Source of the DNA: Burkholderiales bacterium
Lineage (GTDB): Bacteria; Pseudomonadota; Gammaproteobacteria; Burkholderiales; Burkholderiaceae_E
Direction of reading: 5' to 3'
DNA: 64,000 bases
Assembly: GCA_029977705.1 (NCBI GenBank)
Contig: JAPOKJ010000002.1
Coordinates: 1 to 64,000, forward strand
Shown here piece by piece: positions 1 to 9,667 of this stretch. The position numbers and the translations under genes are program-made. Position 1 is the stretch's first letter; each line of letters begins with the position of its first letter. The notes beneath the pieces were generated by a model. The model had not been told where the DNA came from and did no database searches. It saw only the letters and a program-made list of their open reading frames with translations.

Positions 1-14
1 ACCGGCAGCGACAA

Positions 15-90
15 CCCCCTCCCCCCCCCAACCCCCTACCCCCCAAACCTAGGGCTGAGGCGCCCCCCGCGCCCCCCAGCCCCCCCCCCC
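15..90. repeat. Two clusters of long C-tracts upstream of the first gene
   Basis: The plus strand has C-runs at 15-19, 21-29, 32-36 and 39-44, separated by 1 to 2 bases, and again at 63-68, 72-77 and 80-90, separated by 2 to 3 bases. The complementary strand therefore carries four closely spaced G-runs (a classical G-quadruplex pattern) and a second three-run block. The tracts end about 20 bp before the start codon at 110, with a GGAG ribosome site at 97-100 between. Long homopolymers can also vary in length by slippage. Folding or function is inferred, and the far side of the element lies outside the window. Confidence 0.6.
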
Positions 91-109: not shown

Positions 110-2311
110 ATGAAAAAAGTCGTGACGGTAACCCTCGGGTCCTCGAAACAGGATTTCTCTTTTGAAACCGAATTCCTCGGCCAGCGTTTCTCGGTCAAGC
201 GCCTGGGCGCCGACGATGACACCGGCAAGGCCTGGGAGCTGATGCGCCGGCAACAGGCCAGTGCCCACGCCATCGGCCTGGGCGAGATCGGGGACCACTA
301 TCAGGTCGGGCAACGGACCCTGGTGAACAAGGAGACCCAGCGCCTGCTCAATGTGGTCACCCGGGTGCCGGCCACCACGGGGGCCACCCTGCGACGCCTG
401 TTGCAGGTACGCGCAGTGCGCCATGTCCAGCAGAAGCTGGGCAATTATTTCAACAACAACCTGGTGCTCTTCCTGTCGGGGATGCGCAATTACGACATGG
501 CGGTGGCGATGTCGGACTACACCCCGAACCTGAGCTTCGCCGACGCCCTGGCACAGACCGGCGCCCCGACCCTGCTCGGTTCGCTGACCCAGCTGGAGCT
601 GTATGCCAAGGGCAGCGAGTTCGTGCTCGCGGGCCGGCCCGGCGAGATGCTCGAGAGCGCCCTGCCGGCGTTCAAGAGCAACCGCATCGCGGCGGCGATC
701 GCCAAGTCGCATGTGATCGTCGGCACCTTCGCTGAACTGAAGGCGGTGGGCAGCCCCGCCAATCTGGCCGGCAAGACCCTGATCACCTCGGCGGTCGATG
801 ACGAGCGGCTGGCCTTCTTCAAGCGCTGCAAGGTCAATCTGGTGATCGATGTCTCGCCCAAGCTGTTTGACCGGGTGGTCGGTGTCAATGTCATCGAGGC
901 GATGATCCTGGCGGCCCTGGGCAAGCGCGCCGAGGAAGTGTCGGATGATGATTTCTCCGAGATTCTCGATGAACTGTCGATCGAGCCGCGCCTGCTGCAT
1001 CCGACCGGCCAGTTCCGCAACATCCGGCGTTTTGCCTTCGTGATCCATCCGCTGAGCCAGGAATTCATCCGCAAGGGATTCCCGATTCCCAAGGGCACGC
1101 CCAAGTTCGTCATGGACCGGGTCGAGACCCTGGCTGCGCACATGCCGCCGATGGTCTACTGCAAGATGGAGAACATCATCTCGCCCACTGGCGCCGAGGC
1201 TGAGGGCTGGCTGATCACGGTGGGCGGCACGCCCAAGGAAATGCTGGCGCGCAGCCCCGAGTTCACCTACCGCCGTCTGCTGCATGCCTCGCGCATCGCC
1301 GAAAAGCTCGGCGCCCAGATCATGGGCCTGGGCGCTTTCACCAAGGTTGTCGGTGATGCCGGCATCACCGTGGCCCGCCGCTCGCGCCTGCCCATCACCA
1401 CGGGCAACTCGTACTCGGCCTCCGGTGCCCTGTGGGCAGCGGCCGACGCCATGCGGCGCATGAACCTGGTCCAGATCGACAAGAGCGACAAGCGTGTGCC
1501 GGCCAAGACCATGGTGATCGGCGCGACCGGGTCGATCGGTTCGGTCAGTGCACGCCTGCTGGCAATGGCCTTCGAGGAGGTCGTGGTGGCTGGCCGCGAC
1601 ATGAAAAAGCTGGAGGAATTGCGCCAGTCGATCCTCGAGGATACGCCCGATGCCAAGGTGGTGTGCTCCACCGACTACGACAGCCTGCTCGGCGAGATGG
1701 ACATGATCGTCACCTCGACATCGGGTGCCGGCAAGAAGATCCTGGACATCACCAAGGTCAAACCGGGTTGCGTGATCACCGATGTGGCGCGTCCGCTCGA
1801 CCTGCCTCCCGAAGAGGTGGCCAAGCGTCCCGATGTGCTGGTGATCGAGTCGGGCGAAATCGAGCTGCCGACCCAGGTCAAGGGCATGAAGAGCATCGGG
1901 CTGCCACCGAATGTGATCTACGCCTGCCTGGCCGAGACCATCGTGCTCGCACTGGAAGGCCGTTTCGAGGTCTTCACCGTCGGTCGCGATACCGAATGGG
2001 AGAAGGTCAAGGAAATCTACAAGCTGGGCCTGAAACATGGCATGAAGCTGGCGGCCATCTCGGGTGTGGGTGGCGTCCATACGGATGAAGCCATCGCCAA
2101 GGTGGTCGAGCTGGCCAGGAAGGCACGCCTGACCTGGAACAAGGGCGCAGGCAAGAAAGCGCCGGCTGCAAAGAAAGCACCGGCTGCAAAGAAAGCACCG
2201 GCTGCAAAGAAGGCCGGCGCAGCCCAAAAGGCACCGGCTGCGAAGAAGGCCAGTGCGGCGAAGAAGGCACCGGCAACCAGGAAGGCACCCGTTAGCAAGG
2301 TGGGCGCATGA
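110..2311 (+). CDS. Long-chain acyl-ACP reductase-like oxidoreductase with extra N-terminal domain and Lys/Ala/Pro repeat tail
   Basis: This 733-residue protein has three parts. Residues 1 to about 300 form a domain I do not recognise. Residues about 300 to 655 resemble, by memory of the family, cyanobacterial acyl-ACP reductase (AAR), which reduces acyl-ACP or acyl-CoA to fatty aldehyde with NADPH. The matching landmarks are a TTGNSYSA segment, the nucleotide-binding GATGSIG at 471-477, and YACLAE with Cys606 in the place of the catalytic cysteine of AAR. The C-terminal 50 residues or so are repeats of the type KKAPAA, like histone-H1-like tails. The start has a GGAG site 9 bp upstream. The stop overlaps the next gene, a WS/DGAT, by 4 bp (ATGA), so the two are almost certainly co-translated. 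Aldehyde or alcohol supply for wax esters is inferred; other acyl substrates are possible. Confidence 0.72.
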   Translation: MKKVVTVTLGSSKQDFSFETEFLGQRFSVKRLGADDDTGKAWELMRRQQASAHAIGLGEIGDHYQVGQRTLVNKETQRLLNVVTRVPATTGATLRRLLQVRAVRHVQQKLGNYFNNNLVLFLSGMRNYDMAVAMSDYTPNLSFADALAQTGAPTLLGSLTQLELYAKGSEFVLAGRPGEMLESALPAFKSNRIAAAIAKSHVIVGTFAELKAVGSPANLAGKTLITSAVDDERLAFFKRCKVNLVIDVSPKLFDRVVGVNVIEAMILAALGKRAEEVSDDDFSEILDELSIEPRLLHPTGQFRNIRRFAFVIHPLSQEFIRKGFPIPKGTPKFVMDRVETLAAHMPPMVYCKMENIISPTGAEAEGWLITVGGTPKEMLARSPEFTYRRLLHASRIAEKLGAQIMGLGAFTKVVGDAGITVARRSRLPITTGNSYSASGALWAAADAMRRMNLVQIDKSDKRVPAKTMVIGATGSIGSVSARLLAMAFEEVVVAGRDMKKLEELRQSILEDTPDAKVVCSTDYDSLLGEMDMIVTSTSGAGKKILDITKVKPGCVITDVARPLDLPPEEVAKRPDVLVIESGEIELPTQVKGMKSIGLPPNVIYACLAETIVLALEGRFEVFTVGRDTEWEKVKEIYKLGLKHGMKLAAISGVGGVHTDEAIAKVVELARKARLTWNKGAGKKAPAAKKAPAAKKAPAAKKAGAAQKAPAAKKASAAKKAPATRKAPVSKVGA
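2153..2298 (+). repeat. 18-bp coding tandem repeat encoding KKAPAA units
   Basis: Three near-identical 18-bp units begin at 2153, 2171 and 2189, followed by degenerate copies to about 2298. They encode Lys-Lys-Ala-Pro-Ala-Ala blocks at the end of the AAR-like protein. The near identity of the first three copies suggests recent expansion, and copy number may vary between strains. The composition is that of basic, disordered DNA-binding tails. Confidence 0.9.
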
Positions 2312-3780
2312 CAGCGGTGCGGCTGAGCCCGCTCGATGCCGCCTGGCTGTTCACCGAGTCGCGGGCGACCCCGAATCATGTCGGCGGCCTGCTCCAGTTC
2401 CGCCTGCCTGAGGATGCGCCGCGCGACTTCCTGCGTCAGCTGATGCATGAGTTTCGCCATCATCGCGACTTCGTGGCCCCCTGGAACCGCCGCCTGAAGG
2501 TCGCTTTCAACAAGAATCCGATACCCTCCTGGATCGAGGATGAGGACATCGACCTCGAATACCATGTACGCCACGCCGCCCTGCCCTGGCCAGGCGGCGA
2601 GCGCGAGCTGGGCGAACTGGTGGGCAGGCTGCACACCACACCGATCGACCTGACACGCCCCCCCTGGGAATGCACCATCATTGAAGGGCTGGAAGGGCAT
2701 CGCTTCGCGCTGTTCATCAAGATGCACCACTCGCTGATCGATGGCGTCAGCGGCATGAACCTGCTGCAGCGGGCGATGGCCGACAGCCGCGAAAAAAGTC
2801 TGGCGCTGCCCCCTTTCTGGGCCACCGGCTTTGGCAAGCCGGCCCGCAAGGAACGGCGCAGCAGTCCGACGCCTACGCTGGCCAACGCCACTGCAGCCGC
2901 CGTGCAAGGCCTGACCGAGCAGGCCCGTTCGCTGCCCCAGCTGGCCAGCGCATTTGGAAAGATTCTCAAGCGCATCGGCGATCCGCGCGACGGGCTGGCA
3001 GTGCCCTTCGATGCGCCTCGCTCGGTACTGAACGGCCGGGTACGCGAGAAGCGTCGCTTTGCCACGCAGCAGCTATCAATCGCGCGACTGCGCGCGGTCG
3101 GTGCAGCCTCCGGCTGCACCCTCAATGATGTGGTCCTTGCGGTCTGCGGAGGCGCCCTGCGGCGCTTCCTGCTCGAGCGCGACGCCCTGCCTGACAAGCC
3201 CCTGACCGCGGGGATCCCGGTATCGGTGCGGCCCAAGGATGACGAGGGCACGGGCAATGCAATCAGCTTCATCGTCGCCACGCTCGGGACGGACATCGAA
3301 GATGCCGCCGAGCGCCTGAAGGTCATCCGCTCCTCGGTGCAGCATGCCAAGGCCCATGTGCAGGGCCTGCCCCGCCAGGCCATGCAGCAGTACACGATGC
3401 TGCTGATGGCGCCGACCCTCATCACCCTGCTCACCGGCATTGGCGGCCGACCGCCGCCGATGTTCAACATCACGATCTCGAATGTTCCGGGCCCCGACAA
3501 GCCGCTTTACTTCAAGGGCGCCGAATTGCTGTCGATCTATCCGGCCTCGATCGTGACCCACGGCCAGGCCTTGAACATTACCTGCGAGAGCTATAACGGC
3601 ACGATGAATTTCGGCTTTACCGCCTGCCACGCTTCGATGCCCAGCATGCAGCGCCTGGCGGTCTATGCCTTCGAAGCCTTTGCCGAACTCGAGACCACCC
3701 TGCTGGGCGAAGCCTCGCCGGCACCTGCACCGCGCCGCGTCGCGGCCAAGCCAGGCAAGGCCCGCCCCAAACGGGGGTAG
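2308..3780 (+). CDS. Wax ester synthase/diacylglycerol acyltransferase (WS/DGAT)
   Basis: The 490-residue protein has the family length and both family landmarks: the catalytic HHxxxDG motif (His140, His141, Asp145, Gly146) and a C-terminal SNVPGP motif near residue 395. Members transfer an acyl group from acyl-CoA to a fatty alcohol (wax ester) or diacylglycerol (triacylglycerol) at the membrane and on lipid bodies. Its ATG overlaps the stop of the AAR-like gene, so the pair forms one operon. That partner could supply the aldehyde, although an aldehyde-to-alcohol step is not encoded next to it. The final 20 residues are basic and Ala/Pro-rich. Substrate choice cannot be read from the sequence. 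Confidence 0.93.
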   Translation: MTAVRLSPLDAAWLFTESRATPNHVGGLLQFRLPEDAPRDFLRQLMHEFRHHRDFVAPWNRRLKVAFNKNPIPSWIEDEDIDLEYHVRHAALPWPGGERELGELVGRLHTTPIDLTRPPWECTIIEGLEGHRFALFIKMHHSLIDGVSGMNLLQRAMADSREKSLALPPFWATGFGKPARKERRSSPTPTLANATAAAVQGLTEQARSLPQLASAFGKILKRIGDPRDGLAVPFDAPRSVLNGRVREKRRFATQQLSIARLRAVGAASGCTLNDVVLAVCGGALRRFLLERDALPDKPLTAGIPVSVRPKDDEGTGNAISFIVATLGTDIEDAAERLKVIRSSVQHAKAHVQGLPRQAMQQYTMLLMAPTLITLLTGIGGRPPPMFNITISNVPGPDKPLYFKGAELLSIYPASIVTHGQALNITCESYNGTMNFGFTACHASMPSMQRLAVYAFEAFAELETTLLGEASPAPAPRRVAAKPGKARPKRG

Positions 3781-3792
3781 GCCGGACGCCAT

Positions 3793-4236
3793 CTACTTGG
3801 ACGCGGGCTTGGCCAGCGCAGCCTTCAGGTCCAGATACTCCTCGCACTGCAGCCCGCAGATGCGCTCGAGTTGGGCCAGATGCTGGCGTGCCTGCTCCAG
3901 CTGGCCCAGCTGCACATAGGCCACGCCAATGTACTCGTGGGCTCCGCGATGGCCTGGGTCGAGACGCAGGGCCTCCTTGTACGCGGCCAGCGATTCGTCA
4001 TAGCGGTTCAGGTTGCGCAGCGTGTAGCCGAGCAGGTTGTGGCCGTCTGCATCCCGCGGATGGTTTCTCACGAACCCTTGCAGGACCGGCAGGGCGGCGT
4101 TCCAGTCCTTGCCTGCAATCAGGCTGCGCGCCCTTTCAAGGCCGTTGTCGGTTCGCCTGGCGCCGGAAATGTCTGCGCTGGAAGCCGTTGCAGCAAAGCC
4201 CAAGCTCAGCGCCATGGCCAGAAGGATACGGATCAT
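3793..4236 (-). CDS. Exported TPR-repeat protein
   Basis: The reading frame is longer upstream, but the start at 4236 is preferred. It gives a clean signal peptide (MIRILLAMALSLGFAATASSA) and has a GGAGA site about 7 bp before it. The mature part of about 125 residues holds roughly three tetratricopeptide repeats, with the typical pattern of Leu-Gly-Tyr, Tyr-x-x-Ala-Leu and Pro-Gly turns, followed by a CGLQC cysteine pair near the C-terminus. It is likely a periplasmic scaffold. It runs convergently to the WS/DGAT gene with a 12-bp gap and divergently from the TonB-dependent receptor, with which it shares a 100-bp promoter region. Specific partners are unknown. Confidence 0.75.
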   Translation of the reverse strand: MIRILLAMALSLGFAATASSADISGARRTDNGLERARSLIAGKDWNAALPVLQGFVRNHPRDADGHNLLGYTLRNLNRYDESLAAYKEALRLDPGHRGAHEYIGVAYVQLGQLEQARQHLAQLERICGLQCEEYLDLKAALAKPASK

Positions 4237-4336
4237 GTCGATTCTCCAGGGAAAGTCGGCCAGGCTGCGACCGCACTGGCATATTATCGACGGCCCCACC
4301 GTGCGCGCAATCAATTTCCGGATGAAGGCCCTGACC

Positions 4337-6649
4337 ATGCTCCTGTCCACTGCCCGCTTCCGCCCCCCGGCAGCAACGCCTTTGAGGCTCATCGTGGCCC
4401 GGGCCTGGGTTCGGCAGGCTTGCTGGCTGGCCATGGCTGGCAGCTGCGTGAGTCTGGTGGCTGGCCCGGCGCATGGCCAGAACATGCCCTCCGAAACAGG
4501 CGACAGTGTCCAGCTCGAGGAAGTGCAGGTCCGCGCCCGCCGCGACCTGCAGGAGCGCTTTCAGGCCACGGGCTCGCGCATCAACATCACGCGCAGTGAC
4601 ATCGAGGCGATGGGCGCCAACAGCATCGGCGACATTCTGCGCCTGACACCGGGCCTGCAGGTCACGGTGACTGCCAATGGCGGCCTGGAAATCCGCATGC
4701 GGGGCATGGGTCCGCAGGACACGCGCATCCTCATCGACGGCGCCCCGGCCAGCACGAGCAGCCGCACCGCCCAATTGCCGCTCGATGAATTGCCCGCCGA
4801 CCTGATCGAGCGCATCGAGGTGATCCGCGCGCCCACCGCCGAGCACCAGGGCGCAGCCGGCGGCACCATCAACATCGTGATGCGAACGGCATCGGTCAAG
4901 CGGGAGACCCTCATCTGGCTGACGGACCAGATCGTCTGGGGTCACCAGGCCGGGCGTTTTTTTGCCTCGCAAACCGGGCCCCTCGGCCCTGTGGCCGCCC
5001 CCAAGTCGGGCGCAGGTGCCGGGAATCAGTGGTCCTACTTCGTCTCACTGAGCGGGGGCCACAACCAGCTGGGCGATGATTCGATCCGGCAATCGACGAC
5101 CAACCAATTGGGCACCGGCCTGCGCACCTCCGCGCTGGCGATCACCGAAAGGTCGCGCCTGTCGAGCAGCAACTGGACCCTCAATCCCCGCCTGAACGGC
5201 CGCATTGGCAACAACGACCGACTGACCCTGCGCGCGGTGATCAATCGCGTCGAGAACGCTGGCGCACTGATCAGTGCGACCGAAGGCATGGCGGGCAGCA
5301 CGGGCACCACCCCGGTCCAGGTGCAGGCGGTCGGCCCCTGGCGCTTCGAGCGTTCGTATGACGTGGCAGCGGCCGACTGGGCCCACAGCTTCAAGAACGC
5401 CAAGCTGGATACCACCTTGCAGTTCGAGCGCTCGCACAACGACTATCGCTACGACCGCAGCAGCACGACCACGCTGGGTCCTGCCGGCGCCTCCAGCAGC
5501 ATCGTGAGCAACAACAGCCTCAGCGACGTACGCAGCGAGCGTGCCACCTACCTCAACAGCAAGCTGACCGCCGCAGCCGGTGAGCGCCTGTGGACGACCG
5601 GCCTGGAGCATGAGGTCCGGCATCTCGAGGTCACCGCCAGTACCGTCACCAGTCAAGCGAACGCGGTGCTGGACTTTGCCGCACGGGTGCGTCGCTCGGC
5701 CTTGTGGGCGCAACTCGAGCAGCCCCTCGAGGCGCAAAAGACCACCGTGACCTTCGGCCTGCGGGCCCAGGACTATGCGCTCGAATCGCTCAGTGCGGCA
5801 GGCCTTCTGAACTACCAGCACCTGTTCTGGCAACCCTCGATCAACAGCCGTACCGCCCTGAGTGCCGACACCCAGTTGCGCTGGAACCTGGCCCGCATCA
5901 ACCGCAGCCCCCGGGTCTGGGAATTGAACAATCTGGTCACGCCGACCCTGGCCGCCAACACGGTGAACAGTCCGGATCTGCGCGGCAATCCCCAGTTGCG
6001 GCCCGAGACCACGCTGACCATGGACATCGGCGTCGACCACCGCCTGAAGATGGGCGGTCAGGCAGGCCTGAACCTTTTCGTGCGCCAGCAGCAGGATGTC
6101 ATCGGACGCAACCTGTCCTTTGATGGCGCGCGCTGGACCGAGCAACCGGCCAACCTGGGCCAGGCGCTGACCTGGGGCATCGAGTCCGATATCCGCACCC
6201 ACCTGCGCTGGCTGGGCCTGGGGCCGGACTGGTCCCTGCGCGCCAATGCCAGCCTCCTGCAGTCACGCATGAAGGGCGGCCCCGCCGACGGCGAACGCAT
6301 TCCGGGCCAGGCCCGCTACCTGGCCAACCTGAACATCAACAAGCCGCTGCGCGCTTCGGGCGGCTGGTATGGCGGCGGCACCCTGGCCCTGGTCGGTCCC
6401 TCCGACTTCAATTACAACACCAGTCCCGGCCTGCTGAATACCGGCAGCGAGCGCGCCCATGCCCAACTGGACCTGTACATCGGTTCGGTCATCCCCAACC
6501 TGGGTTTCTGGCGCCTGAATGTGTTCAACATCACCGACTGGACCCGGGACCGGGTCCGCACCGTGGTGGACAATGGCATCGTCTACAACGACCAATCGCT
6601 GCGCCGCATGACGCCGCGCTGGTTCCTTACCGTGGGGACCCGATTTTGA
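4337..6649 (+). CDS. TonB-dependent outer-membrane receptor
   Basis: The protein of about 770 residues has a signal sequence, an N-terminal plug domain (LEEVQVRARR, DILRLTPGLQV, then RGMGPQDTRILIDGAP and GGTINIV) and a long beta-barrel ending in Phe (VGTRF), as expected for TonB-dependent receptors. The start is a choice: 4337 has an AAGG site 8 bp upstream, while 4322 is in frame but has a poorer one. The substrate is not shown by the sequence. The next gene, overlapping by 4 bp, is globin-like, which makes haem or a haem-protein ligand a reasonable guess but no more. Confidence 0.88.
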   Translation: MLLSTARFRPPAATPLRLIVARAWVRQACWLAMAGSCVSLVAGPAHGQNMPSETGDSVQLEEVQVRARRDLQERFQATGSRINITRSDIEAMGANSIGDILRLTPGLQVTVTANGGLEIRMRGMGPQDTRILIDGAPASTSSRTAQLPLDELPADLIERIEVIRAPTAEHQGAAGGTINIVMRTASVKRETLIWLTDQIVWGHQAGRFFASQTGPLGPVAAPKSGAGAGNQWSYFVSLSGGHNQLGDDSIRQSTTNQLGTGLRTSALAITERSRLSSSNWTLNPRLNGRIGNNDRLTLRAVINRVENAGALISATEGMAGSTGTTPVQVQAVGPWRFERSYDVAAADWAHSFKNAKLDTTLQFERSHNDYRYDRSSTTTLGPAGASSSIVSNNSLSDVRSERATYLNSKLTAAAGERLWTTGLEHEVRHLEVTASTVTSQANAVLDFAARVRRSALWAQLEQPLEAQKTTVTFGLRAQDYALESLSAAGLLNYQHLFWQPSINSRTALSADTQLRWNLARINRSPRVWELNNLVTPTLAANTVNSPDLRGNPQLRPETTLTMDIGVDHRLKMGGQAGLNLFVRQQQDVIGRNLSFDGARWTEQPANLGQALTWGIESDIRTHLRWLGLGPDWSLRANASLLQSRMKGGPADGERIPGQARYLANLNINKPLRASGGWYGGGTLALVGPSDFNYNTSPGLLNTGSERAHAQLDLYIGSVIPNLGFWRLNVFNITDWTRDRVRTVVDNGIVYNDQSLRRMTPRWFLTVGTRF

Positions 6650-7076: not shown

Positions 7077-9176
7077 TCAAAACATCAGTTGCAGTCCCAG
7101 CCGGAGGGTACGACCGGGCAAGGGTACCCGGCCTGGCAAGGTCTGCGTCAGGATCGAGGTCGCGCTGAAGGCCAGACGATCAGTCATATTGTCCAGGCGT
7201 GCGTACCAGAGCCAGCGCGCGGGCTGGCCGCCCATGTTGCTGCGATGCTGATAGGTCAGGTTCAGATGGGCAAAGGTATAGGCTTGGGAAAGGCCGTCGG
7301 CCGGTCGGGCATAGTGATCGAGGCCAAAGCGCGCGCCCCAGCCCTGGGCCTGCTCGCCACGGGCCGCCCACACCAGGGTCGCCCCCAGCCGCAGGGGCGA
7401 CAGCCTGGGCAGTGAGGCCTGGGTGACCGTATTGATGCCACGCACCAGATCGGCACGCCATTGCAGGTCCAGGGTTTGGGGCTGATGGCTCGAGCGCAGC
7501 AGCCGCCAATTGCCCTGCAATTCCATGCCCCAGAGCCGGGCCCCGTGCTGCCGGTAGGCGTACTCGGGCAGGATCGCGGCGCCGGTCACATCATCGTGGC
7601 CATCACCATTGGCATCGACCGGATGGAGGCCGCCATCCGAGCCCCGCTGCCGGCCGGTGGCCTCGAGCGCCAGGTAGTTCTGGAATCGGCTCAGAAAGAC
7701 ATTGGCCGATGCGCGATGGCCCGTGCTCTTCCCGTCGCCGTCGCGGCCACGCCAGGCCAGACCAAGATCGAGGTTGACGGCGCGCTCCTTGCCCAGGGAC
7801 GCGTCGCCGACCTCATAGGCGGCGGTCGCCAGGTGCGGGCCGTTGGCGAACAGTTCGTAGTCCTTGGGGGCGCGCTGATTCCAGGTCAGGTTGCTGGTGA
7901 ACTGCCATCGGGCATCGAGACGCAGCAGCGCACCCAGTGCCAGGCTGGCCGGATTGAAATCACGCGTTCCGGTGACGAAGCGGGGCACGGCGGGATTGCC
8001 TTCGGAACTCACCCCCACCTGTTCGATCCGTCCCCCCATGCTCAGCTTGCCCCAGCGGTAGTTGGCCTCTTCGTAGACAAAGAGCGCGCTCTGGCGGGTG
8101 CGGGCATTGGGTGCAAAAGCCTCACTGCCTTGGGCACCGAAGCGGGACTGGTCCCACTGCAGGCCGACGACCCCTTCGAACGCTCCCCACTTGTGGTGCC
8201 GGGCCTCGAGACGGATATCGAAGCCGCGGTTGGTGAACAGCGTCCCCGGCTCCCCGGCATCGAATTCGGTATGACGATAATCGCTGTGATTGGCCTGCAG
8301 CTTGATGTCACGCCAGAGGCCTCCCAGCCGCATCAAACCCTCCAGCGACCAGCGCTGGCTGCGCATCTCGAGGCTGACCTCATCCTCGGCGACCGAGCCA
8401 TAGCTCGAACGGTACTCGCTGACCGAAGCCCCCATGTAACCGCGATCAAAAAAGACCGTACCCCCTAGCGCGCCGCCCTGGGAACTGGCCGCCGAATTGC
8501 AGATGCGGTAGGCGATTGCCGGCGAACGCGGATTGAGGCAAGGCAAGGCCACCGGCACCGATACGTCCGAGCTTTGGCGGGCATGGATATCGGCGTGGAA
8601 AGCGTAGCGGCCATTGCCGGCCTCAAACACCGCTGCGCCATTGCGGCCGCGATCGCCGCTGGCAATGCTCAGGTCGGTGCGTCCCTGCACACCCTGTATC
8701 GCCTCCCGGGGAATGCGCCCGTCGATGACATTGACCACGCCCCCGATGGCATTGCCGCCATAGAGCAGCGTGCCGGGCCCGCGCAGCAACTCGATACGCT
8801 CGGCGATGAGCGGGTCCGTCGCCACGGCATGGTCGTAGCTCAGGCCCGAGACATCGAGCGAGGCGCCCGAGTTGCTCAGGATGCGGATGCGGTCGCCATC
8901 CTGGCCGCGAATGATCGGGCGACTGGCCTGGGGGCCGAAATAGGTACTGCTGACACCGGGCTCACCGCTCAGGGTTTCGCCCAGACTGCTGCGTGAGCGC
9001 AGCACGAGGCCCGCGCCGGACAACTGGGACGAAGGCGACACGAACTCGTTGGAGCGCAGGGGGCTGGCGGTGATATTGACATCTTCCAGGGCGCTCTGGG
9101 CGCGGACTGGCGAGGAGACGGCGAAGGTGGAGGCGATGGCCCAGGCCATCGCAGAAAGCTGCGGGGAAGGTTTCAT
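7077..9176 (-). CDS. ZnuD-like TonB-dependent receptor
   Basis: The protein is a TonB-dependent receptor of about 699 residues with signal peptide (ending SSPVRA), a plug domain (IIRGQDGDRIRILSN, ELLRGPGTLLYGGNAIGG) and a barrel ending LQLMF. The barrel segment RAPKDYELFANGPHLATAAYE, with its ARGPHLAT-type core, is characteristic of the ZnuD zinc/haem receptor family as I know it. An external loop contains two cysteines near an Ile-Cys-Asn segment, also typical of ZnuD. An alternative ATG at 9239 overlaps the stop of the upstream gene (TGATG) and suggests translational coupling, but it would put a 21-residue basic stretch before the signal peptide. Zinc import under Zur control is the expected role. 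Confidence 0.8.
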   Translation of the reverse strand: MKPSPQLSAMAWAIASTFAVSSPVRAQSALEDVNITASPLRSNEFVSPSSQLSGAGLVLRSRSSLGETLSGEPGVSSTYFGPQASRPIIRGQDGDRIRILSNSGASLDVSGLSYDHAVATDPLIAERIELLRGPGTLLYGGNAIGGVVNVIDGRIPREAIQGVQGRTDLSIASGDRGRNGAAVFEAGNGRYAFHADIHARQSSDVSVPVALPCLNPRSPAIAYRICNSAASSQGGALGGTVFFDRGYMGASVSEYRSSYGSVAEDEVSLEMRSQRWSLEGLMRLGGLWRDIKLQANHSDYRHTEFDAGEPGTLFTNRGFDIRLEARHHKWGAFEGVVGLQWDQSRFGAQGSEAFAPNARTRQSALFVYEEANYRWGKLSMGGRIEQVGVSSEGNPAVPRFVTGTRDFNPASLALGALLRLDARWQFTSNLTWNQRAPKDYELFANGPHLATAAYEVGDASLGKERAVNLDLGLAWRGRDGDGKSTGHRASANVFLSRFQNYLALEATGRQRGSDGGLHPVDANGDGHDDVTGAAILPEYAYRQHGARLWGMELQGNWRLLRSSHQPQTLDLQWRADLVRGINTVTQASLPRLSPLRLGATLVWAARGEQAQGWGARFGLDHYARPADGLSQAYTFAHLNLTYQHRSNMGGQPARWLWYARLDNMTDRLAFSATSILTQTLPGRVPLPGRTLRLGLQLMF

Positions 9177-9238
9177 GACAGAACCACAAGATGACTTCAG
9201 GAACAGCCATGGCACTGCATGGCTGCTGCGGCATGACA

Positions 9239-9667
9239 TCAGGAGGTCGTCGGCGGTCCCCGGGCCTGGAAGGCGGCGATCAGCCGGGTGCTGAGGCGCT
9301 CTTCGTGGAAATCGTTGCGCACTGGCGTCTGCGGGTCCGGCCTCAGGCTCAGGGGCACATGCAACACCAGACCATGGTCGGCCAGATGGTCGAGCAGGCG
9401 GCACTTGAAGCTGTCCTGATGCCCGGAAAACCACTCCGATGACGCGCTGCTGACCCCCTGTTCCTGGACGAGGCCGGGGCCCTGCTCGCGCAGGGTCTGA
9501 GCCTCTGCCGCAGGGGCCAAACGGCCCACCGGCAGGCCATGACTGATGCCGTGCACCAGGGCCAGGGACTGCACGAAGAACATGGCCGCACACAGCCAAA
9601 GACGCCAACCCAGAGGCAAGCGTCCTTTGCAGACGGTGGTGATTCGCGGGGACATGGGACGGGACAT
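9239..9667 (-). CDS. Small exported His/Cys-containing protein upstream of ZnuD-like receptor
   Basis: The 142-residue protein has one N-terminal hydrophobic segment (residues about 18-35) followed by potential metal ligands: HGISHG, then SGHQDSFKCRLLDHLADHG. Similar short proteins, often annotated DUF2946 or hypothetical, precede zinc-receptor genes in other betaproteobacteria, so a periplasmic zinc-handling role is plausible. The stop overlaps a candidate start of the receptor gene, indicating one operon. A second in-frame ATG at 9655 is possible; neither has a strong ribosome site. The assignment to a named family is uncertain. Confidence 0.6.
   Translation of the reverse strand: MSRPMSPRITTVCKGRLPLGWRLWLCAAMFFVQSLALVHGISHGLPVGRLAPAAEAQTLREQGPGLVQEQGVSSASSEWFSGHQDSFKCRLLDHLADHGLVLHVPLSLRPDPQTPVRNDFHEERLSTRLIAAFQARGPPTTS

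Follow-up and report, generated by a model that had tools for sequence, protein, structure and literature searches.

A two-module AAR-like reductase encoded next to WS/DGAT, probably a new first step of bacterial wax-ester production

Introduction

The reductases described for wax-ester production are FarA, AcrB, Acr1 and now FcrA, and a 2025 survey of bacteria with a wax ester synthase/diacylglycerol acyltransferase (WS/DGAT) found FarA in 1% of them, AcrB in 31% and FcrA in 26% (PMC11948995). Betaproteobacterial WS/DGAT clusters carry Maqu_2507-type reductases (PMC10351704). In the prodigiosin pathway PigE is reported to reduce a thioester to an aldehyde, an activity found in lysates but not with the purified enzyme alone (PMC8341465), and in cyanobacterial AAR the acyl-accepting residue is Cys294 (PMC9594044). 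Here we describe a gene pair at the start of a 64,000-nucleotide stretch of a Burkholderiales genome (GCA_029977705.1, contig JAPOKJ010000002.1, positions 1 to 64,000; hereafter the window), in which an AAR-like reductase with an additional N-terminal module is encoded directly before a WS/DGAT.

This reductase probably represents a new way in which hundreds of bacteria begin wax-ester production. We consider a two-step route quite likely, in which the reductase converts an acyl thioester to an aldehyde, an iron-dependent alcohol dehydrogenase (Fe-ADH) converts the aldehyde to an alcohol, and WS/DGAT makes the ester. Together with the adjacent Fe-ADH, the reductase family offers a testable candidate to fill some of the wax-ester reductase gap in the survey (PMC11948995). 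If the route is right, AAR-type chemistry gains a natural fate besides alkanes, enzymes for fatty-aldehyde and wax production are supplied, and wax storage is indicated in Desulfobacterales, Acidobacteriota and many Burkholderiales. A literature search, with preprints and most subscription papers outside its scope, found no description of a reductase family associated with Fe-ADH and wax esters.

Results

A reductase gene overlapping a WS/DGAT gene

110..2311, + strand: predicted two-module AAR-like acyl-thioester reductase (733 aa ORF)
2308..3780, + strand: WS/DGAT (490 aa ORF)
2308..2311, + strand: ATGA, a 4-bp stop/start overlap of the two genes

The overlap reported in the first-pass annotation is plain in the sequence: the two open reading frames (ORFs) share the ATGA, which suggests that they may be translationally coupled. 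The same 4-bp overlap is found in three related loci (L049, L054 and L060). The downstream gene encodes a full-type WS/DGAT (TIGR02946, 464.9 bits vs a cut-off of 309.95), with both PF03007 (6.7e-73) and PF06974 (4.7e-37) present and with HHSLIDG in its translation, an instance of the HHxxxDG motif that marks WS/DGAT membership.

The C-terminal module has the fold and cysteine of AAR

1142..2059, + strand: C-terminal AAR-type catalytic module (residues 345–650)
1520..1540, + strand: dinucleotide-binding motif GATGSIG (residues 471–477)
1925..1927, + strand: Cys606, predicted acyl-accepting cysteine

For residues 345–675 of the reductase the strongest match is PigE, in its N-terminal reductase domain (182.8 bits over 330 residues), followed by AAR (TIGR04058, 69.9 bits); matches to PDB sequences agree with these profiles (AAR, E = 7e-15). 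We modeled the protein with AlphaFold, using 40 family sequences (mean pLDDT 85), and compared the model with the PDB by Foldseek. The top seven matches were all AAR chains (E = 5e-19 to 5e-17, TM-score 0.74–0.77 on the target), with 6jzu at E = 5.4e-19 and TM 0.76, giving the module the AAR catalytic and NADPH domain fold; the next match was the carmabin TAD domain. This structure check had been set beforehand, and with no non-acyl dehydrogenase among those top matches the AAR likeness claimed for the C-terminal half held.

The GATGSIG motif and Cys606 lie where they were first placed. Residues G471, G474 and G477 are invariant in 40 relatives, and in the phmmer alignment Cys606 pairs exactly with residue 294 of the AAR chain, in keeping with the catalytic place assigned to it. 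The cysteine is conserved in 82 of 88 sequences, and the remaining six all have Gly. These six are second tandem reductase copies in Desulfobacterales and form a single clade in the tree; judged by sequence, they would look like a non-catalytic partner. Each reads YAGLAETI beside a Cys-bearing copy (L067:10509-12563, L070:10458-12512, L072:10602-12635, L076:10186-12240, L080:10577-12616 and L088:10094-12139).

By analogy with AAR and PigE we infer, on good grounds, that the window reductase performs thioester-to-aldehyde chemistry. Cys606 would take over the acyl group from a long-chain acyl-CoA or acyl-ACP, and NAD(P)H in the Rossmann domain starting near residue 466 would reduce the thioester to a fatty aldehyde. 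A dedicated Fe-ADH, whose gene lies just upstream in relatives, would convert the fatty aldehyde to the alcohol, and WS/DGAT, from the overlapping gene, would join this alcohol and a second acyl-CoA into a wax ester. The N-terminal module, as a diverged non-catalytic AAR-type copy, would probably act as a built-in partner, substrate entry or docking surface, and the basic C-terminal tail would serve localization.

An Fe-ADH gene adjoins the reductase gene in most close relatives

A reductase relative is encoded in 538 candidate stretches, of which the best 80 were kept. The close group has 45 loci whose upstream sequence is long enough to judge, and 37 of them encode an Fe-ADH no more than 3 kb upstream (34 co-directional, three divergent), separated from the reductase by a median of 42 bp (range -4 to 118 bp); a divergent Fe-ADH is present in nine of 26 loci of the distant group. 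The order Fe-ADH, reductase, WS/DGAT occurs in L027, L029, L041, L054 and L060. Locus counts are not independent events because the loci are related to each other; it is recurrence in distant phyla that carries the weight of the neighborhood evidence. Six Desulfobacterales islands (L067, L070, L072, L076, L080 and L088) hold WS/DGAT, two tandem reductases, an alpha/beta hydrolase, an ABC1-family kinase and PhaR/phasin-like genes, and most of them additionally hold Fe-ADH, patatin and ferredoxin.

One of these islands (L067:1-16502) resembles a neutral-lipid storage locus, with Fe-ADH, patatin, phasin/PhaR, WS/DGAT, ferredoxin, two reductases, hydrolase and ABC1 kinase.

2..52, + strand: possible last codons of a missing upstream Fe-ADH gene, unproven

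Base 1 of the window is base 1 of contig C50, leaving 109 bp of visible sequence 5' of the reductase, and the window's own Fe-ADH is not visible because the window starts at the contig end. Frame 2 of the first 52 of these bases reads PAATTPSPPQPPTPQT and then a stop, 57 bp before the reductase, a gap within the family range given above. The first-pass annotation had the locus lacking an alcohol step; none can indeed be seen, but possibly only because of where the contig begins.

The N-terminal module is a family trait and may be a degenerate AAR-type copy

110..1009, + strand: N-terminal module (residues 1–300), an alpha/beta fold of two domains that lacks GxxGxxG and Cys, probably an AAR-type copy that has degenerated

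An extra N-terminal domain had been noted as a fusion. The domain is there, and residues 1 to ∼300 have no usable match in Pfam, NCBIfam or PDB sequences, but it belongs to the reductase family at large and is not a local fusion. For nearly all of the best 80 relatives the match starts at residue 1, except where a contig end truncates the gene, and since relatives retain both halves at 44%–85% identity, the conserved two-half architecture is not chance.

Modeled separately (pLDDT 88.5), the module gave a Foldseek list in which sugar-binding proteins and other alpha/beta folds came first, with weak matches, but the highest TM-scores were those to AAR (0.50) and carmabin TAD (0.49); BFVD yielded no useful match. 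A profile comparison of the two modules paired residues 51–111 with 401–452 around a common P-x-T-T-G motif (score 25.5, P = 0.015) and beat 199 of 200 column shuffles, which is suggestive only. By our reading, the Cys606 helix (ACLAETIVLAL) also resembles residues 260–269 (NVIEAMILAA), where Cys is uncommon. Given the TM-scores, the profile match and the helix resemblance, we lean toward a degenerate AAR-type copy. An earlier hhalign match of the two modules at their shared junction was discarded because both alignments overlapped there.

The first-pass annotation had proposed that this domain carries a second activity, from aldehyde to alcohol. The enzyme would then be a four-electron alcohol-forming reductase, its N-terminal module reducing the aldehyde released by the C-terminal one, as might be expected of one chain with two modules of similar size and a modeled N-terminal fold that appears two-domain and Rossmann-like. 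Eight of the 45 close relatives, moreover, have no Fe-ADH within 3 kb upstream, although L052 has one just downstream of WS/DGAT. In the family alignment, however, neither GxxGxxG nor a correspondingly placed Cys is found in the N-terminal module, and its conservation is lower than that of the C-terminal module (mean column identity 55% vs 68%). The missing GxxGxxG makes a second reductase activity unlikely, and a dedicated Fe-ADH adjoins the reductase in most close relatives, so the proposal is not supported, and we rate an alcohol-forming enzyme as improbable.

WS/DGAT is encoded in every reductase-bearing genome tested

WS/DGAT is encoded in 49 of 49 reductase-bearing genomes vs 29 of 200 genomes of the window's order, which served as the comparison set (nominal Fisher p = 8e-32); this p-value overstates the case because the 49 also take in other phyla and close relatives, while the direction is independent of it. 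The window's own genome has three WS/DGATs, two of them elsewhere (contigs C111 and C70). ADO (PF11266), the partner of AAR, is absent from that genome, and an alkane route for the aldehyde was rejected on this ground.

The aldehyde could nonetheless be destined for another product, such as alkyl-ether lipids, fatty amines or hydrocarbons, with the WS/DGAT association secondary. The prodigiosin and tambjamine pathways use homologs of the C-terminal module (PMC8341465, PMC9594044), certain reductases in wax-forming bacteria act in ether-lipid synthesis (PMC11948995), and WS/DGAT is not adjacent in many relatives. Against this, the protein has no aminotransferase domain and the genome no ADO, all 49 carrier genomes encode WS/DGAT, and the 4-bp overlap with WS/DGAT is recurrent. 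We hold another product to be slightly less probable still than an alcohol-forming enzyme.

Very improbable, and the weakest of the alternatives, is reverse operation with Fe-ADH, in which wax-derived alcohols would pass through the aldehyde to acyl-CoA as stored wax is mobilized or degraded: Fe-ADHs are reversible and frequently catabolic, and patatin and alpha/beta-hydrolase genes are present in the Desulfobacterales islands, but the window reductase gene overlaps a synthase gene, not a lipase gene, and the direction reported for AAR-type enzymes is reductive (PMC9594044).

Observations that weigh against the wax-ester route

Several observations count against the two-step wax-ester route. 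WS/DGAT adjoins the reductase in a minority of relatives only, and the reductase misses the AAR family cut-off by a wide gap (TIGR04058, 69.9 vs 449.7 bits). Purified PigE did not oxidize NAD(P)H rapidly (PMC8341465), and cyanobacterial AAR placed in Acinetobacter fed wax-ester synthesis poorly (PMC5806253). The window's own genome encodes an AcrB-type PRK07201 fatty acyl-CoA reductase on contig C96 (L102:208-2190, 952 bits to NF005539) and therefore has another route to fatty alcohol. Finally, the best Fe-ADH of that genome is just 40% identical to the family's partner and lies in another gene setting. The cognate Fe-ADH either lies in the assembly gap preceding C50 or is genuinely absent; we assume the gap because of this low identity and different setting.

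The genome's Fe-ADHs on contigs C125, C39 and C40 (28%–40% identical to the partner type) were not accepted as the partner.

A basic tail recurs on enzymes of the proposed pathway

2138..2308, + strand: basic Lys/Ala/Pro tail of the reductase (residues 677–733; 57 aa, 30% K/R, 40% A, no D/E)

The histone-like tail first noted is confirmed as a Lys/Ala/Pro tail at residues ∼677–733. Across the window and loci L018–L097, a simple composition rule assigned basic Ala/Lys tails to 48 of the 71 reductases, 23 of the 46 adjacent Fe-ADHs and four of the 14 WS/DGATs, compared with none of 156 other conserved neighbors, a rough control because neighbor ORFs were called mechanically. Desulfamplus reductases have acidic tails or none. 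In Pseudomonadota the tails on the reductase, Fe-ADH and some WS/DGATs resemble histone/PhaM tails, and in PhaM of Cupriavidus the Lys residues of a PAKKA tail attach PHB granules to the nucleoid (PMC9049629). By analogy with this tethering, localization is a fair guess for the role of the reductase tail.

A bolder proposal, which we put forward tentatively and think somewhat more apt to fail than to hold, is that the family is a further, so far overlooked class of wax-ester reductase that forms an internal pseudo-dimer, with an inactive and an active AAR-type module in a single chain; in Desulfobacterales an additional tandem paralog has Gly for the catalytic Cys in all six copies, and the similar tails in Pseudomonadota could gather the enzymes at the nucleoid or at the anionic surface of an inclusion.

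The family is sporadic and spans distant phyla

Relatives were found in Burkholderiales, several Gammaproteobacteria, Desulfobacterales and metagenome-assembled genomes of Acidobacteriota. Inhella, Thioalkalivibrio sp. XN8 and Desulfamplus magnetovallimortis are among the cultured bacteria with the gene. The nearest named relatives are Burkholderiales, which fits the betaproteobacterial host noted initially. Within the order, any match was seen in only five of 300 genomes, the window's own included, and a full-length-type match in two others, a sporadic distribution. A tree made by a quick method sets the group with the window apart from more distant groups, and Gammaproteobacteria and Acidobacteriota are scattered among them, suggesting transfer. 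Plasmid records gave only partial matches of about half length, mostly to genes annotated as aminotransferases (PigE/TamH type).

A relative in genome G615 consists of two matching pieces in different frames (L008:1501-2241 and L009:1501-1809), either a broken gene or a sequencing error; no N-terminal module match was reported for it. Farther downstream in the window, two long ORFs (4037-6649, + strand; 7077-9608, - strand) resemble TonB-dependent outer-membrane receptors and are unrelated to the reductase.

Comparison with known systems

The window reductase shares with cyanobacterial AAR (TIGR04058; PDB 6jzq, 6jzu) the fold of residues 345–650, the GxxGxxG motif, the place of the catalytic Cys and the predicted thioester-to-aldehyde chemistry. 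It is only ∼22% identical to AAR, has 733 vs 341 residues, carries the N-terminal module and falls far below the family cut-off; AAR associates with ADO, whereas reductases of the window type associate with Fe-ADH and WS/DGAT. Although it may work as AAR does, it should not be classified under that name, given its score below the family cut-off and the absence of an ADO partner.

The thioester reductase domains of PigE and TamH (NF053554; PMC8341465, PMC9594044) are the best sequence match of the C-terminal module and have the conserved Cys and nucleotide motif. They are fused to an aminotransferase and make amines, whereas no aminotransferase domain was matched in the window protein, the PigE model covering its reductase part only (positions 42–363 of 837). 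The carmabin TAD (PDB 9e4u, 9e56), the second-best fold match to the C-terminal module at 16%–17% identity, is an assembly-line domain for a natural product; the title of one of its PDB entries names a disulfide between Cys2238 and dephospho-CoA.

Among wax-ester reductases, the AcrB type (PRK07201/NF005539) is alike in being one chain of two Rossmann-type modules that serves WS/DGAT, but its modules are SDR-type and it is alcohol-forming. NF005539 does not appear in the window reductase's 25 listed matches. Marinobacter Maqu_2507 presumably belongs to this AcrB type and its PRK07201/NF005539 model. FarA, Acr1 and FcrA likewise provide fatty alcohol or aldehyde for wax esters but have other folds, FcrA being an HMG-CoA-reductase homolog and Acr1 an SDR (PMC11948995). 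The reductase family matches none of Acr1, FarA, AcrB and FcrA, and, with its genome context, this supports the suggestion that the gene pair belongs to a wax-ester-type lipid route distinct from theirs. For Acr1, the survey lists the partner aldehyde reductase as unknown (PMC11948995); for the window family the candidate is Fe-ADH.

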